Notes under the pieces: model-generated
Database searches by the model: none
Seen by the model: the letters and a program-made list of their open reading frames with translations, nothing else
Told to the model about the DNA's origin: nothing
From: Aequorivita aurantiaca
Lineage (GTDB): Bacteria; Bacteroidota; Bacteroidia; Flavobacteriales; Flavobacteriaceae
Assembly: GCF_030410135.1 (NCBI RefSeq)
Contig: NZ_JAUGQQ010000006.1
Location: forward strand, 124,001-188,000
Direction: 5' to 3'
DNA: 64,000 nt
Position numbers and translations under genes: made by a program
Shown: one piece after another, positions 1,409 to 44,199 of the stretch
Layout: the number at the start of each line of letters is the position of its first letter
Numbering within the stretch: the first letter of the stretch is position 1

Positions 1409-1478
1409 GTATTCTCCCCTAATTAATAACATTAAAGGTTTCTTTAATGGGTATAAAATATTTATAAAATCCCTAAAC

Positions 1479-3329
1479 ATGAAATTAGAAAAGATTCTTG
1501 CTAATTTAAATTCTTTCGAAAAAAACTCATTCCTTAAAATCATCGATGGAATTCTAGCAAATGATCCACAAAATATTAAAGAAATTGAAAAGATTTTAAG
1601 CGACTCCAGCAAGGATTTAAAGAATATGGATAACATCAATGTTGTCAGGGTCTTTAATTTGGTTCAAGATGAATTTTCGCAATGCATTGTAGAAGAATTT
1701 GTAAACACTACATCACAATTGGATATTTTATCTGATATAATTACAAAGGATGGTAACTCTATAATGAAACAAGATTGGTTTGCACGCCTTTATGAAAAGG
1801 AGTTAAGCAAACTAGATAAAAAACTCAAAGATTTTAAAAAGACAATTGAAAGTGGAAAAGGAGATGTTTCCGAACAAAGATTTCGTGATTATAAAATCTA
1901 TCGATCTTGTTTGTCCACAGCTTATAACAACGATAAGGATAATAATCAAGAACGTAAAATAACAACTGATGAATTATCAATAATATTAACTCTTTCCCAA
2001 CAGCTGGAACTGTCACAAGAGGAGATTAAGCTTATCAATTATTTGATTATTCCTATTCAAAAACAAGACATAGATATGGTAATAAATGACCTGAAAATAA
2101 TGGGTGTTATTTTTTACTCTAAAAAGACCAGCACTATTTATGTTGCGGATGAAGTAATTCGAATATTAAGAAAGATAAGAGGCAAGGAGGTTGCTGATAA
2201 ATTCTTTAGACGCGTACTTCGTTTATTACGCGAACCTCAAATTAATGCTATTTGTAGAAAGCATCAAATTGACTGGCGTTTACCGGTAGATGAAAAAATT
2301 AAAGCCATTATTCGTGACGGCATTAAATTTTCAAATGTCCTTACGGAAGATGTGCATAAAGATGGAACGAATGTCACCGATAAGAAAAAATTTATTAATG
2401 AATTATGTGATAAAGGATTAAATATAACGCCCGCCATAAAGGGAACCTTGATAGATGAAAAAGTAAATAACCTTATAAAATACTTTGATGAAATAGAAAG
2501 AGATGAAAAAGTAGGTATTTCCATCGATGGCTATGAAAAACTTTTAATTGAATTAGGGGAAGTGCTAAAAACACTAAATGAAAGGCTGCGTATTGAATTT
2601 GAATTGCAGGATGAGAAGGTTCTAAAAAGCAATTACCTTTTGGATTACAATATAAAACCCAGAGATGTTTTGGAAATAGTTACGGGAAAAGAGCTTGAGG
2701 AATTTTGCAAAATAAAAGGCATCAAAACACGAGGCGATATTATTCAAAATATTCTCGAAAATTATAAAGATGCCGAGAATTTATATTTGGAAAACTATGA
2801 AAATATCGGTTTCAGAAATTTTAATCTTTTAAAAGAAAATGGAATAACAATTAAGGAAGCTAATTTAGGAGTTAAGTTTGAAGAACTTACCAAAACAATA
2901 TTTGAACAATTGGGCTTTAATGTTGATGAACCTTTGCGAAAGAAATTAAATACCACAAAGGATAAGGCTGATATAATCCTAAATATTGGAAACAATGAAT
3001 TGATTATTGTTGAATGCAAAACCTTAAAGGAAAGCGGTTATAATAAATTCAGTTCCGTTTCACGACAGCTGAAGGCTTACAGTAAATGTGTGGAGAATAC
3101 AGATTATAAAGTGATAAAATCCTTACTCATTTCTCCAGATTTTTCTGATGAATTTATAAAAGATTGCGGATTGGAGTACGAATTGAATCTCTCTTTGATT
3201 ACTGCATCTTCATTGGTTAAAATATTAGAAGGATTTAAGAATTCTAAACACAAACAATTCCCACATAACTTGTTGATGCGCGATGTTTTGATACAAGAGG
3301 ATAGGGTTTTGAAAGCTATTGGAAAATAA
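1479..3329 (+). CDS. hypothetical protein with SAP-like segment and C-terminal PD-(D/E)XK nuclease domain
   Basis: 616 residues, predicted cytoplasmic, no signal peptide. Residues about 464-560 look like a restriction-endonuclease/Mrr-type fold: a helix with GVKFEELTKTIFEQLGF, then KADIILNI (Asp498) and ELIIVECKT (Glu512, Lys514), the D...ExK catalytic set. Residues about 390-428 (KELEEFCKIKGIKTRGDIIQNIL) resemble a SAP or Rho-N-like nucleic-acid-binding helix pair. The first 380 residues are mostly helical and unrecognised. The layout suggests a DNA- or RNA-cleaving enzyme, possibly defensive, but no methylase, ATPase or helicase partner is adjacent. ATG 1479 is the first start after the promoter at 1378-1408. 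Base composition is visibly AT-richer than the core genome to the right. Confidence 0.75.
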   Translation: MKLEKILANLNSFEKNSFLKIIDGILANDPQNIKEIEKILSDSSKDLKNMDNINVVRVFNLVQDEFSQCIVEEFVNTTSQLDILSDIITKDGNSIMKQDWFARLYEKELSKLDKKLKDFKKTIESGKGDVSEQRFRDYKIYRSCLSTAYNNDKDNNQERKITTDELSIILTLSQQLELSQEEIKLINYLIIPIQKQDIDMVINDLKIMGVIFYSKKTSTIYVADEVIRILRKIRGKEVADKFFRRVLRLLREPQINAICRKHQIDWRLPVDEKIKAIIRDGIKFSNVLTEDVHKDGTNVTDKKKFINELCDKGLNITPAIKGTLIDEKVNNLIKYFDEIERDEKVGISIDGYEKLLIELGEVLKTLNERLRIEFELQDEKVLKSNYLLDYNIKPRDVLEIVTGKELEEFCKIKGIKTRGDIIQNILENYKDAENLYLENYENIGFRNFNLLKENGITIKEANLGVKFEELTKTIFEQLGFNVDEPLRKKLNTTKDKADIILNIGNNELIIVECKTLKESGYNKFSSVSRQLKAYSKCVENTDYKVIKSLLISPDFSDEFIKDCGLEYELNLSLITASSLVKILEGFKNSKHKQFPHNLLMRDVLIQEDRVLKAIGK

Positions 3330-3434
3330 AAACTGGGGATAGAAAGTATGGGAATCTAGTTCCTTGCTTTTTGGGTTTTGAATTTTATTACATTTAAAAT
3401 ATTAAAAATAACAATGCTAGTATAATTGGAATAA

Positions 3435-3448
3435 ATACTATATAGTAT
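3435..3448. repeat. 14-base perfect palindrome
   Basis: ATACTATATAGTAT reads the same on both strands and lies between the 616-residue gene and the GTTGGCAGTA boundary of the cassette-like unit. Together with AACAATGCTAGTATAATTGG at 3410-3429 it could be the stem tip of a shorter or decayed partner of the hairpin at 4710-4842. That is an inference. Confidence 0.35.
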
Positions 3449-3458
3449 ATATCCGCAA

Positions 3459-3478
3459 GTTGGCAGTAATTTAAGGCG
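3459..3478. repeat. left boundary of cassette-like unit
   Basis: GTTGGCAGTA at 3459-3468 is the exact reverse complement of TACTGCCAAC at 4710-4719, which opens the hairpin element on the other side of the two genes at 3501 and 4128. The match brackets a 1.25 kb unit. In integron terms this would be the 3' half-site left by the preceding cassette. The core does not fit the classical GTTRRRY consensus. Confidence 0.5.
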
Positions 3479-3500
3479 TCCTCATTAAAATTATGTAATT

Positions 3501-4121
3501 ATGAAAAGAATTCGTCAAGTTCTAAAAGATTTGAATGTAAGTTTAGAAAGAGCCCAAGAATTTATTTACGACACAACGGGAGAAAATTTAGGCGATGCAA
3601 ATTCAAAAATTACTCAAGAAATAATCGATTTACTTACAGAAAAATTTCAGGTAGATAAATTGAAAAAAAGTGCTTCAGATAAAATAAGGGAAGAAAAAAA
3701 GTTATTATTGGAAGCAAATAGATTAGCTACAATTAAGGACATTGAGAATGCCAGAAATGGATATAATACTACTACATTTAAATTAAATTATTTCTTTCAG
3801 AAATTCCATCTAATTAAATCAAGGTCTAACGATGAATGGATTGAAAACTCGAAAGAGGTTGTTATTGATGCTTTTGAGAAGATGATTGATATACATAAGG
3901 ACAAAAGACTTCCAAAAGGTTATAAACCTGAAATGACACCATATTTAGACGAATTATTTGAAAATTATTCAATTATTAAAAAAGCTTTTCACGTCACCAA
4001 AAGTCTTAAAAGCGAGTTTTCAGATAGAACAAATAGAAGAACTGAAATTGAAAACGAAAATTTTACTTGGGGTGGTTTAAGTGGCGAAGAAGCATATATT
4101 GGATATTGGAATACAGAATGA
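3501..4121 (+). CDS. hypothetical protein with IF-2 N-terminal-like domain
   Basis: 206 residues. Residues about 1-68 closely resemble the conserved N-terminal module of Bacteroidota translation initiation factor IF-2: RIRQVLKDLNVSLERAQEFI, then NSKITQEIIDLL, then KFQVDKLKKSAS and a basic REEKK stretch. The GTPase part is absent. After a lysine/glutamate-rich helix come about 130 residues of unknown, mostly helical sequence ending in a short aromatic tail (EEAYIGYWNTE). No signal peptide or membrane segment. The gene lies 6 bases before the next one and both sit between matching inverted 10-mers, so they probably move as one unit. The IF-2 module suggests binding to a partner shared with IF-2; the function is unknown. 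Confidence 0.7.
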   Translation: MKRIRQVLKDLNVSLERAQEFIYDTTGENLGDANSKITQEIIDLLTEKFQVDKLKKSASDKIREEKKLLLEANRLATIKDIENARNGYNTTTFKLNYFFQKFHLIKSRSNDEWIENSKEVVIDAFEKMIDIHKDKRLPKGYKPEMTPYLDELFENYSIIKKAFHVTKSLKSEFSDRTNRRTEIENENFTWGGLSGEEAYIGYWNTE

Positions 4122-4127
4122 TAATTT

Positions 4128-4700
4128 ATGGATATAAATTTTAAAGAAATATTTTCCTATTTGGAGACCCAAAATGTTTTTTCAACTTCAATAATTGAAT
4201 GGTGGCTTTTAAAATATTCGGATTTTTATAAACAAACCTATGGCTTTGTTTATAGCCAACATCTTTTCAAAATGGACGATGGTTCAACTGTCCGACTTCC
4301 ACCATTTGGAAAACCGACCGACGAAGAAAAATTTATTGATTTATATCAGGCTCTCGATACAATTTCGGAATTGCACAGAAACGAAAAGTATTTTGACCTA
4401 CAAATGGTCGAATATCATAAAATCAAAGATTCTCAATCTGACTTAAAAAATTGGGTTGCGGCAAACGAAAATTTTGGTTCTGAAAAATATGTTTGTTTTT
4501 TGATTGATTACTTGGACTATGATGAGAATAATAAAGAAGAACATTTAAAAATATTTCTTCTTGAATCAACTGACCTTGAAATTTATATTGACCGACAAGA
4601 TTTTAAGAATACAATAGACTTTCTCGAAACCTTTAACGAACTTTATTGGGTTCAAGAAATTTTACCTGAAAACCTGAACAAAACGAAAATAGAAATGTAG
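4128..4700 (+). CDS. hypothetical protein, second gene of cassette-like unit
   Basis: 190 residues, acidic, predicted cytoplasmic, no family recognised. It is rich in aromatic residues (IIEWWLLKYSDFYKQTYGF near residue 22-40) and in charged residues. It has one cysteine (about residue 125, KYVCFLIDYLDYDE). The start is 6 bases after the stop of the IF-2-N-like gene, so the two are almost certainly co-transcribed. The stop is 10 bases before the attC-like hairpin, the position expected for the last gene of an integron-type cassette. Pairing with the upstream gene could mean a two-component system such as toxin/antitoxin or effector/immunity, but nothing in the sequence proves it. Confidence 0.6.
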   Translation: MDINFKEIFSYLETQNVFSTSIIEWWLLKYSDFYKQTYGFVYSQHLFKMDDGSTVRLPPFGKPTDEEKFIDLYQALDTISELHRNEKYFDLQMVEYHKIKDSQSDLKNWVAANENFGSEKYVCFLIDYLDYDENNKEEHLKIFLLESTDLEIYIDRQDFKNTIDFLETFNELYWVQEILPENLNKTKIEM

Positions 4701-4709
4701 GAAAAAAAC

Positions 4710-4842
4710 TACTGCCAACAATGGCTATAAGTAATTGCTTGTTCTCGTCTATTTCTGAAAATCCTGGCGGATTTTCAGTTTGGTGTGTACTTGCAAAGTT
4801 TCGTGTTAACCCACGCAACTACTCCTAGCCGAGACCGTTAGC
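4710..4842. repeat. 130-base attC-like imperfect palindrome
   Basis: The ends pair in register: GCCAAC (4714-4719) with GTTAGC (4837-4842, one G-T), GGCTA (4723-4727) with TAGCC (4826-4830), GTAATTGC (4731-4738) with GCAACTAC (4815-4822, one G-T). The centre carries a perfect stem CTGAAAATCC (4755-4764), loop TGGC, GGATTTTCAG (4769-4778). The right arm has a few extra bases, like the bulged strand of an attC site. It directly follows a short hypothetical gene, as in cassette arrays. A terminator is less likely: there is no T-run and the structure is very long. No integrase is in the window. Confidence 0.65.
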
Positions 4843-4902
4843 TAAAATCACAAAACAAAAATCCCGCTAACTCGAGGGTCCCACTCATGATTCTCAAACC
4901 AA

Positions 4903-5014: not shown

Positions 5015-7096
5015 ATGTTCTTCGCTAAAGGAAAATCAAAACTTCAAAAAACAAACTATTGCTATCTTTTAATTGGAGTGCTGTTAGCAACCCAAAGCTG
5101 TAAATCGCCAAGTGAGCAAACTTCCTCACAAGCAGATTTACCTGCGGAAGAAACATATACCGTAATTATCGCGGGGGTAAAGGTTGGGCATTTAAACGTT
5201 AGCCGTTCTGGCGATACGGTTGTTACCGATTACGACTATAAAGACAATGGCAGAGGCCCAACGATTAAGGAAACCATTGTGCTCAATAACAAAGGTTTCC
5301 CCGTGCAATGGGATATTGCCGGCAATACTACTTTTGGCAACGACATAAAAGAAAGTTATAAACTGGATGGGCAGCAAGCAACTTGGACGGATGCCACGGG
5401 AGAAGGTTCGGCAAAAATGGAGCGGCCTTCCTTTTATGTAAATCAATCCGGCAGCCCGTATTCCTTGCTTATGCAGGCTCGCGTGTTGCTGAATTCAAAA
5501 GATATGAGTGTTGAAGCGTTGCCAGCGGGGCGGTTACAGCTTGCGGAATTGGAGGCCCTTACAGCAACTTCAGACGCTGGCCCAGTGAATTTGAAAAGCT
5601 ATGCTTTATCTGGATTGGATCTAAACCCTTCCTATTTTGTTTTGGATGAAAAGAAGCAGTTTTTTGCGCTAATCACGCCGCGGGTTGTCATCATTCGCTC
5701 CGGTTTTGAGAACGAGGAAAAGGCAATGCGCCTGCTTGCGGAAAAATATTCGGCAGAGCGATATGAAGATTTGCAAAAGAAATTTGCGCATAAATACAAC
5801 AAGAATATCCGCATTCGCAATGTGAAAATATTCGATCCAAAAACGTTGGCGCTGACCGATTTAGCTTCGGTATTGATAAGCGACGATAAGATAGTAAGCA
5901 TTGATGCGGCTGACGTGACTGCTGGCGAAAATGAAATGAAAATAGATGGCGCTGGCGGAACTTTGGTGGCGGGACTTTATGATATGCACGGACATATGGG
6001 CGCGAATTCTGCGCTTTTGAATGTTGCCGCTGGAGTTACTTCGGTGCGCGATATGGGCAATAACAATGATGTGTTGGACAGTCTTATCCACAAAATAGAA
6101 TCGGGCGTTCTTGCCGGGCCACGCATTACCCGATTGGGTTTTATTGAAGGGAAAAGTCCGTTTAACAGTAACAATGGAATACTTGTAACGAGCGAGGAAG
6201 AAGCACTTGCGGCAGTTCAAACTTATGCCGATATGGGATTTCACGGAGTAAAACTGTACAATAGTATGACCGGGGCCTGGGCTCCCGCAATCGTTAAAAA
6301 AGCTCACGGATTGAATATGACCGTTATGGGTCACGTTCCTGCTTTTTCCAATGCGGACGATATGCTTATGGCTGGTTTTGACGAAATGACCCACATCAAT
6401 CAAACGATGTTGGGATGGGTTTTGGAGCCAGGGGAAGACACCCGAACTTTATTGCGATTAACGGCATTACAGCGTTTGCCTGAATTGGATTTAAACAGCG
6501 CACCAGTTCAAAAAACCTTGGATTTAATGGTGAAAAATAAAGTAGCAATGGACCCAACCTTGGCAATCCACGAGTTGTTATTGCTTTCGCGGAACGGGGA
6601 AACGCAGGCAGGAGTTTTGGATTACATCGAAAATATGCCCCCCAGCGAACAGCGCGATGCAAAAATGGCCATGGCGAGCATCGCAAATGAAACCGAAGAT
6701 AAAGCCTACCGGGGCGCGTATAATAAAATTGTGGAAGCCTTAAAAATGATGACGGAACGCGGCATTTTAATTGTGCCCGGCACCGATTTGGGCGGCGCAC
6801 TTACGCTACACAGGGAATTGGAACTTTACCAACAATTGGGATACACCCCAGCGGAATTATTAAAATTGGGCAGCTATGATATGGCGCAATATCTTGGGCA
6901 AAAGGACCGAGGTACTATTGAAGTAGGAATGCTTGCCGATTTCTTTTTAGTTCCAGGCGATCCAACGAAAGATTTAAAGGCAATCAAAAAGATTTCAATA
7001 GTTTCCCGCGGCGGGGTTATTTATTTTCCGAGTGAAATATATCCTGAGTTTGGGATTAAGCCATTTATGGAAAAGCCTGGGGTTAAAGAGAAATAA
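5015..7096 (+). CDS. amidohydrolase-family lipoprotein
   Basis: 693 residues. The N-terminus has a basic stretch, a hydrophobic helix and a lipobox ending at Cys (LLATQSCKS, about residue 29), so it is probably a lipoprotein. Residues about 45-270 are a beta-rich extension of unknown role. The amidohydrolase domain follows: the metal-site HxH in DMHGHMG (His325, His327), VTSVRDMG, GVKLYNS with a candidate bridging lysine, GHVPAFS, and PGTDLGG near residue 590 with the last metal-binding Asp. The C-terminal part GTIEVGMLADFFLVPGDP is the usual closing strand of the composite beta domain. The family includes imidazolonepropionase- and prolidase-like enzymes; the substrate cannot be told. Clearly more GC-rich than the genes to its left. 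Confidence 0.85.
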   Translation: MFFAKGKSKLQKTNYCYLLIGVLLATQSCKSPSEQTSSQADLPAEETYTVIIAGVKVGHLNVSRSGDTVVTDYDYKDNGRGPTIKETIVLNNKGFPVQWDIAGNTTFGNDIKESYKLDGQQATWTDATGEGSAKMERPSFYVNQSGSPYSLLMQARVLLNSKDMSVEALPAGRLQLAELEALTATSDAGPVNLKSYALSGLDLNPSYFVLDEKKQFFALITPRVVIIRSGFENEEKAMRLLAEKYSAERYEDLQKKFAHKYNKNIRIRNVKIFDPKTLALTDLASVLISDDKIVSIDAADVTAGENEMKIDGAGGTLVAGLYDMHGHMGANSALLNVAAGVTSVRDMGNNNDVLDSLIHKIESGVLAGPRITRLGFIEGKSPFNSNNGILVTSEEEALAAVQTYADMGFHGVKLYNSMTGAWAPAIVKKAHGLNMTVMGHVPAFSNADDMLMAGFDEMTHINQTMLGWVLEPGEDTRTLLRLTALQRLPELDLNSAPVQKTLDLMVKNKVAMDPTLAIHELLLLSRNGETQAGVLDYIENMPPSEQRDAKMAMASIANETEDKAYRGAYNKIVEALKMMTERGILIVPGTDLGGALTLHRELELYQQLGYTPAELLKLGSYDMAQYLGQKDRGTIEVGMLADFFLVPGDPTKDLKAIKKISIVSRGGVIYFPSEIYPEFGIKPFMEKPGVKEK

Positions 7097-44126: not shown

Positions 44127-44199
<73 letters not shown>

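Follow-up and report, generated by a model that had tools for sequence, protein, structure and literature searches.

A two-gene unit of Aequorivita aurantiaca, very probably a cassette from an integron-like gene-capture system of Bacteroidota with another recombinase

We analyzed a 64,000-nucleotide stretch of the Aequorivita aurantiaca genome (the window) and found that it contains, at 3459..4836 of the forward strand, a cassette of two genes with matching ends and its own 3' hairpin, which together read as one movable unit. We are highly confident that it belongs, as a gene cassette, to an integron-like capture system found in Bacteroidota, one that employs a different recombinase from that of integrons. 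An integron-like reading had been offered in a first-pass annotation made from the letters of the window alone, and it gains support here from the rule by which cassette ends match, from the existence of arrays, from an attI site and from the divergence of sequences at junctions. The cassette, its landing pad and the amidohydrolase gene described below lie on the forward strand.

The window cassette and its landing pad

The cassette starts with an R' box, GTTGGCAGTA (3459..3468), whose exact reverse complement is the R'' box TACTGCCAAC (4710..4719) that opens the attC-like site. These inverted 10-mers had been pointed out before and are as described; when extended, the two arms reach 14 nt with 93% complementarity (3459-3472 and 4706-4719). 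We add to that description that the two 10-mers pair within one cassette, and that the GTTAGC at 4837..4842, previously counted with the hairpin, is the core of whatever comes after the cassette, R'/R'' pairing within one site being rare. The crossover point would lie inside the GTT of the R' box at the cassette start.

Neither gene has a recognized family. Gene 1 (3501..4121, 206 aa) gave sub-threshold Pfam matches and weak PADLOC matches, with nothing above cut-off, and gene 2 (4128..4700, 190 aa) matched no Pfam family above cut-off. Homologues of gene 2 occur in 4 other genomes of the 199 in the family, none of them with a site within 1.5 kb on either side; we dropped the idea that gene 2 is a mobile cassette elsewhere, as 0/4 homologues lie in a cassette.

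The attC-like imperfect hairpin runs from AAC to GTT at 4717..4839 and is the single match in the window both to covariance model R1 (E 7.6e-18) and to a structural detector. Its R1 score of 95.9 bits ranks 11 of 53 hits, the window copy being one of the 36 rows from which the model was built and so having helped its own score. The long imperfect palindrome earlier described at 4710-4842 is real. It has a perfect 10-bp central stem with a 4-base loop (4755..4778, pairing 4755-4764 with 4769-4778), L arms of 16 nt each and the closing GTTAGC. The 5' L arm, GGCTATAAGTAATTGC (4723..4738), carries A at arm positions 7 and 12, which gives G.T wobbles on the bottom strand, and the 3' L arm, GCAACTACTCCTAGCC (4815..4830), carries an additional mismatch at its position 6. 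Folding z-scores were -2.88 for the hairpin as top-strand DNA and -2.58 as RNA. Between AAC and GTT the bottom strand folds at -21.0 kcal/mol versus -16.9 for the top strand, and the hairpin is probably read as a folded bottom strand. No Rfam family was found at the hairpin sites scanned (the window, L053, L112 and L116).

Against the possibility that the hairpin is unique, raised in the first-pass annotation, it recurs in its own genome, in the family and in the phylum. Among the 23 own-genome matches listed, 7 have E < 1e-11, and the nearest copies share 88-89% identity over 132-149 bases; homologues at 88-93% identity exist in many genomes. Matches were found in 153/199 family genomes (E <= 0.01 per genome; some weak), and model R1 at E 1e-4 gave hits in 73/198 genomes of the phylum, in a scan with strict filters that scored at most 17 candidates per genome.

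Directly to the left of the cassette, and forming its left boundary, which was not part of the earlier description, lies an attI-like site (3420..3458) with the inverted repeat ATACTATATAGTATAT and no adjoining recombinase gene. It is identical at 29/39 positions to the attI of the genome's own recombinase (contig C44), and no other ungapped match to that attI in the window is better. The genus sample holds nine such copies including this one, of which six are followed by GTT, and no recombinase motif was seen in the 1.6 kb upstream of the nine. Two further copies found by pattern are alike and both then run into GTT; a match on contig C11 of the same genome was dropped because GTT does not follow. 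Ahead of the window site is a leader that contains TTTTATTACATTTAAAATATTAA (3374..3419) and has counterparts in relatives G211 (85-89% identity) and G199 (76-78%), both of which have TACATTTG at the place of the window's TACATTTA. Read against the promoter consensus, the leader is possibly a promoter. The motif TAnnTTTG stands upstream of 6/9 attI copies without a recombinase, and the window leader has no exact TAnnTTTG; at locus L145, one of the nine, and at the attI of the own recombinase, the motif is part of the last codons of the recombinase. At L145 (G218:C16), the decayed 3' end of a recombinase precedes the attI-like site, which suggests that some pads are remains of platforms; the attI-like pads without a recombinase may be what is left of dead platforms.

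To the right, an amidohydrolase gene (5015..7096, PF01979) forms a conserved flank outside the cassette, and it is present in 8/8 relatives whose locus was fetched. Between them the locus varies. An attI-like site lies upstream of the amidohydrolase in 3/8 relatives, one of the three broken, and was not found in the locus stretches of the other 5/8; the distance from site to amidohydrolase is about 6-29 kb in relatives versus 1.6 kb in the window. In G211, the pad is followed by a 550-aa gene, a hairpin site (E 1.4e-9) and further genes, and the first unit behind the attI-like site no longer matches at its ends. The relatives examined are not colinear here, an outcome that the first-pass annotation had left to be settled; they differ over about 1430-4900 as a block, and a search among them for an exact empty site of this cassette found none. 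On this comparison, the landing pad that holds the cassette is variable and in part decayed.

Several other elements of the window were noted in passing. A repeat with AATAGAAATCAGTTTGGTTGCC at 1-187 and 498-563 is found again in relatives, where its place within this locus shifts. Beside the pad, 1479-3329 encodes a 616-aa protein with weak similarity to Mrr and Cas4-like proteins, possibly a defence gene, of which one of the eight relatives (L208) has a diverged copy. Farther away are a tRNA (44127-44199) and, on the minus strand, a Bacteroidete tryptophan leader RNA (RF01692, 53710-53827).

The state of the pad raises the question of whether the system is real and the window unit itself a fossil, that is, a decayed pad with one frozen cassette. 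We regard this as possible rather than probable. There is a single cassette, with the recombinase elsewhere; the L arm has its extra mismatch, the leader has no exact TAnnTTTG, and the like pad in G218 retains a decayed recombinase end. Speaking against a fossil, the cassette ends match at 10/10 positions, both reading frames are open and the R1 score ranks 11th of the 53 hits, with the copy's own place in the model counted in.

Arrays, matching ends and strand bias

We searched for further sites with the structural detector, whose pattern is AAC, spacer and a 16-nt arm, then the opposite arm, spacer and GTT. It was run on the window and on 40 stretches, from 25 genomes, chosen for having site or recombinase hits in or near them. 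The detector found 229 distinct sites in these chosen stretches versus 0 in 651,174 shuffled bases. Arrays of the hairpin, for which the first-pass annotation had advised a search, do exist in other genomes and in the A. aurantiaca genome itself, where the 7.3-kb contig C12 is a run of hairpin-bearing units.

Neighboring sites less than 6 kb apart formed 192 pairs. In 131/192 of them, the two ends of the enclosed cassette complemented each other at six or all seven of the variable positions, whereas R' and R'' within one site, that is, across a junction, agreed at no fewer than six of the seven in only 12/229, and shuffled ends matched in 3.6%. Because a cassette's own ends match and ends across a junction do not, the 10-base box belongs to the cassette and not to the site, as would be expected of units that excise as circles. 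The 61/192 pairs with unmatched ends may reflect missed intervening sites or decay.

The 128 end-matched units have a median length of 773 nt, and the longest open reading frame (ORF) runs along the array direction in 114/128. A cargo set of 113 ORFs, made up of the two genes of the window cassette and 111 ORFs drawn from the 128 end-matched units, contained 76 Pfam families. Among the 25 commonest, cation efflux occurs in 6 ORFs and the others, including restriction-modification and toxin families, in 1-2 ORFs each, and PADLOC identified Septu-type and restriction genes. Within the G221 array, L200 4763-5734 carries a transposase-like ORF that we read as IS110 family; elements of an IS110-like kind that target attC are found in integrons.

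The hairpin arms are asymmetric between strands. Mismatches in the arms of the top strand were A.C in 478 cases, C.A in 25, G.T or T.G in 2 and others in 32, with the A.C mismatches located at arm positions 7/8 and 12/13. An A.C or C.A on the top strand is a T.G or G.T wobble on the bottom strand, and the bottom strand folds better in 189/201 sites. Two arm pairs are nearly fixed as G.T, in 32/36 and 36/36 of a set of 36 differing sites, and in the same set both sides of the pair change in 11/16 arm pairs. Arm pairing overall was 98.6%, a figure that is partly circular, since paired arms are what the detector looks for; which wobbles occur is free of this circularity. The sites combine R and L boxes with a better bottom-strand fold, as integron sites do. 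Their core is another matter: GTTRRRY fits in only 18/229 sites, in keeping with the mismatch noted in the first-pass annotation.

Recombinase platforms and junctions

The recombinase had been reported as missing from the window, and the genome's own copy (391 aa) indeed lies on another contig, C44. A tyrosine recombinase near an array, which had been suggested as something to look for, was also found: it is XerA-like and heads the arrays. In 17/17 platforms, picked by eye from two hit lists, every site found was downstream of the recombinase and in the same direction. A less biased test used a named scan by protein only, which gave 80 recombinase loci. Model R1 produced 52 hits in 16 of these, and 50/52, in 15 loci, were downstream of and co-oriented with the recombinase. 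Only at L237 88-1687 did hits, two in number, lie upstream of the recombinase and point the opposite way. R1-hit loci include Winogradskyella, Seonamhaeicola, Algibacter, Flavobacterium, Zunongwangia, Algoriphagus, Aquiflexum and Rufibacter, together with metagenome-assembled genomes labelled Sphingobacteriales and Bacteroidales. There was no R1 hit at 64/80 loci, many of which are cut by contig ends or hold other recombinases, and none in the 35 protein-scan loci titled as other phyla; unlike R1, the detector had a single hit there, next to a recombinase of an acidobacterium (L289). In 8/30 fetched recombinase loci, the contig stops less than 1 kb past the matched stretch, as expected if arrays break assemblies.

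In 12/17 platforms, the first cassette starts 29-138 bp past the recombinase stop, and in these 12 the cassette start matches the cassette's own end at 9-10 of 10 bases; in the other 5/17, the first cassette start is 817-2752 bp away. By its position and ending, the site that closes with GTT just behind the recombinase gene would be the attI, the entry point of the array. A short inverted repeat may stand straight before the first cassette, e.g., TATATAGTTACTAGTAACTATATAcatac followed by GTT. This repeat beat its shuffles (at most 1 of 300) in 5/11 distinct platforms tested, and we dropped it as a general mark of attI since it exceeded shuffles in only these five. Behind the genome's own recombinase gene on C44 come AATAAACACTATATGGTGTTTATTCGAAT and then GTTACACCAC, and 136 bp separate its stop codon from the end of the contig.

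Junctions that swap at the core had been suggested as something to look for, and junctions do differ from the GTT onward, both in the first-cassette starts of the platforms and between the relatives G206 and G221. G206 and G221 are 98.3% identical over 2285 bp of recombinase and attI, are identical through CCAATT and the GTT that follows it, and have no colinear similarity beyond. In G159, two identical copies of recombinase and attI have different first cassettes. The module of recombinase and attI shared by G206 and G221 (L199 6220-8493, L200 8977-11260) also starts abruptly, just behind an R''-like box, which may mean that the platform itself moves or that the preceding units share a hairpin.

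The 17 aligned recombinases are 305-396 aa long, and H-x-L-R-H, H and Y are invariant in their C-terminal parts. Four were scanned whole. PF00589 fits all four, and their best NCBIfam family was NF040815 (XerA-like), at 196-228 bits against a cut-off of 220, which 2/4 pass; against the integron integrase family TIGR02249 (cut-off 265 bits), they scored 191-206 bits. No family genome (0/199) had a TIGR02249 match over cut-off, and many of the sub-threshold matches listed lie beside arrays. Structural relatives of the recombinase profile in the PDB were XerA (228 and 221 bits), IntI4 (207 bits, in two pieces) and XerD (160 bits), and an AlphaFold2 model of a Winogradskyella protein (mean pLDDT 83.8, pTM 0.55) had XerA and IntI4 as its first Foldseek matches. 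Passages of PMC9668308 on the integrase name an additional domain near patch III as defining for IntI. No such domain appears in these recombinases by profile A1: IntI4 (2a3v) has 65 residues (180-244) between its two aligned pieces versus 22 profile positions. Among phage records, the best match had 38% identity over 69% of the query (best 15 of 85 records).

A tree was built that took in 53/80 protein-scan loci and left out 3/4 other recombinases of the own genome. When it was left free, the two IntI used lay outside. A single clade of the 56 Bacteroidota recombinases was neither established nor rejected (AU test, p 0.567), and the same holds for one clade that includes the two IntI (p 0.441).

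Could this then be a canonical integron, with IntI and attC, that has been overlooked in the phylum? The layout is the same, with a recombinase, attI, co-oriented cassettes, R/L hairpins and a bottom-strand bias; the AU test does not reject a clade with IntI, and IntI4 is among the top folds. We nevertheless consider it unlikely. We rejected it on the TIGR02249 result and the core motif, and the XerA-like family assignment, the short stretch where IntI4 has 65 residues and the place of IntI in the free tree point the same way. In integrons, the integrase gene is divergent from the array, whereas here the recombinase is co-directional with it in 17/17 platforms. With no IntI over cut-off and GTTRRRY in so few cores, the system very likely works like an integron without being a canonical one, and by these comparisons Bacteroidota most likely have a distinct integron-like lineage.

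If the hairpins were just terminators of transcription, or REP/MITE-like repeats lying by chance behind genes, one would also see numerous stable stems after genes, some about 90% alike between genomes. This explanation is very improbable. We rejected it on the cassette-specific 10-mer rule and on the G.T asymmetry, which favors the bottom strand where a terminator would favor the transcribed top strand; it is also at odds with placement downstream of one recombinase type, the exact G206/G221 junction and the lack of an Rfam family at the sites scanned.

Proposed mechanism and comparison with known systems

For the integron-like capture system that we prefer, we propose that the XerA-like tyrosine recombinase would recognize two partners, the attI behind its own gene, which ends in GTT, and the cassette hairpin in the form of a folded single-stranded bottom strand, on which the two near-fixed G.T wobbles and the unpaired spacer would mark strand and polarity. 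A circular cassette would be inserted by exchanging strands with attI at GTT. Excision would be an exchange between neighboring hairpins, through which the two matching 10-base ends of the cassette would be rejoined. The window cassette would have entered at an attI-like site without a recombinase, either served in trans or with its recombinase lost later.

Integrons share the general layout, namely a platform headed by a recombinase, an attI, cassettes in tandem that carry hairpin sites, and a bottom-strand bias, and integron cassettes have complementary ends as well. The system described here differs from them in its XerA-like recombinase without the IntI-specific stretch, in a core that reads GTT(G/A), with 10-base ends particular to each cassette, where integrons have GTTRRRY, in two nearly fixed G.T wobbles, in a recombinase gene co-directional with the array and in attI-like sites that lack a recombinase. 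The part of the IntegronFinder 2.0 paper on Bacteroidetes gives only In0 as known earlier and one complete integron (Salinibacter), and a review, where it lists phyla with integrons, includes Bacteroidota. Our literature search, which covered titles and the openings of abstracts with most subscription papers outside it, returned no account of such arrays; within that literature the system was not found described as integron-like, and it appears widespread in Bacteroidota.

Three described elements resemble parts of the system. The first is rAID, defined by a predicted tyrosine recombinase, co-oriented short genes and conserved intergenic motifs (PMC12247911), all of which are also present here. 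Its cargo consists of orphan immunity genes, unlike that of our cassettes, and has a GC content under 41% (PMC12247911); the passages of that paper on rAID do not mention integron, hairpin or cassette. The rAID recombinase groups with those of Flavobacteriaceae with weak support (88/51). A tblastn search of plasmids led to an array on a Parabacteroides distasonis plasmid (L294 5725-11906), with a recombinase and annotated immunity genes, which from its annotation we read as a rAID system. Its cassettes have matching ends of 8-11 nt in 6/6 cases versus runs of 3-5 nt in 42/43 other pairs, where 3 nt are built into the pattern. This array shares the end rule with our system, whereas its hairpins are about 40 nt long, its core is ATTA and not GTT, and its cargo is immunity genes.

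The second is the recombinase that adjoins tet(X3) (tpnF, TnpF) on Acinetobacter and related plasmids, with 53.8% identity over 61% of the query. In FJ012881 (L290 6708-6904), an attI-like inverted repeat comes after this recombinase, with GTTATGTGCC next and tet(X3) immediately behind, so tet(X3) would be the first unit of a captured platform; no hairpin of the Bacteroidota cassette kind was detected behind tet(X3). The third is aph(3')-IVb of Riemerella anatipestifer, which has a 27-bp leader and a 140-bp hairpin tail and inserts without homology (PMC13148043). The parts of that paper on the element liken the tail to attC and leave the mechanism open; they describe a single gene and report no recombinase, attI, array or end rule.

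Whether all of these belong together is a question on which we are evenly divided. The proposal is that Bacteroidota have an integron-like lineage of their own, in which a XerA-like recombinase family carries out single-strand hairpin recombination without the added domain of IntI, with G.T wobbles in place of the strand marks used by IntI, that rAID, the tet(X)-recombinase unit and the Riemerella capture are pieces of it, and that dispersed attI pads let one recombinase feed many sites. With an integron-like system of this kind, Bacteroidota would have a general route of gene capture, the need for the extra IntI domain in hairpin recombination could be tested directly, and rAID arrays, the recombinase beside tet(X) and homology-free capture in Riemerella would be tied together.
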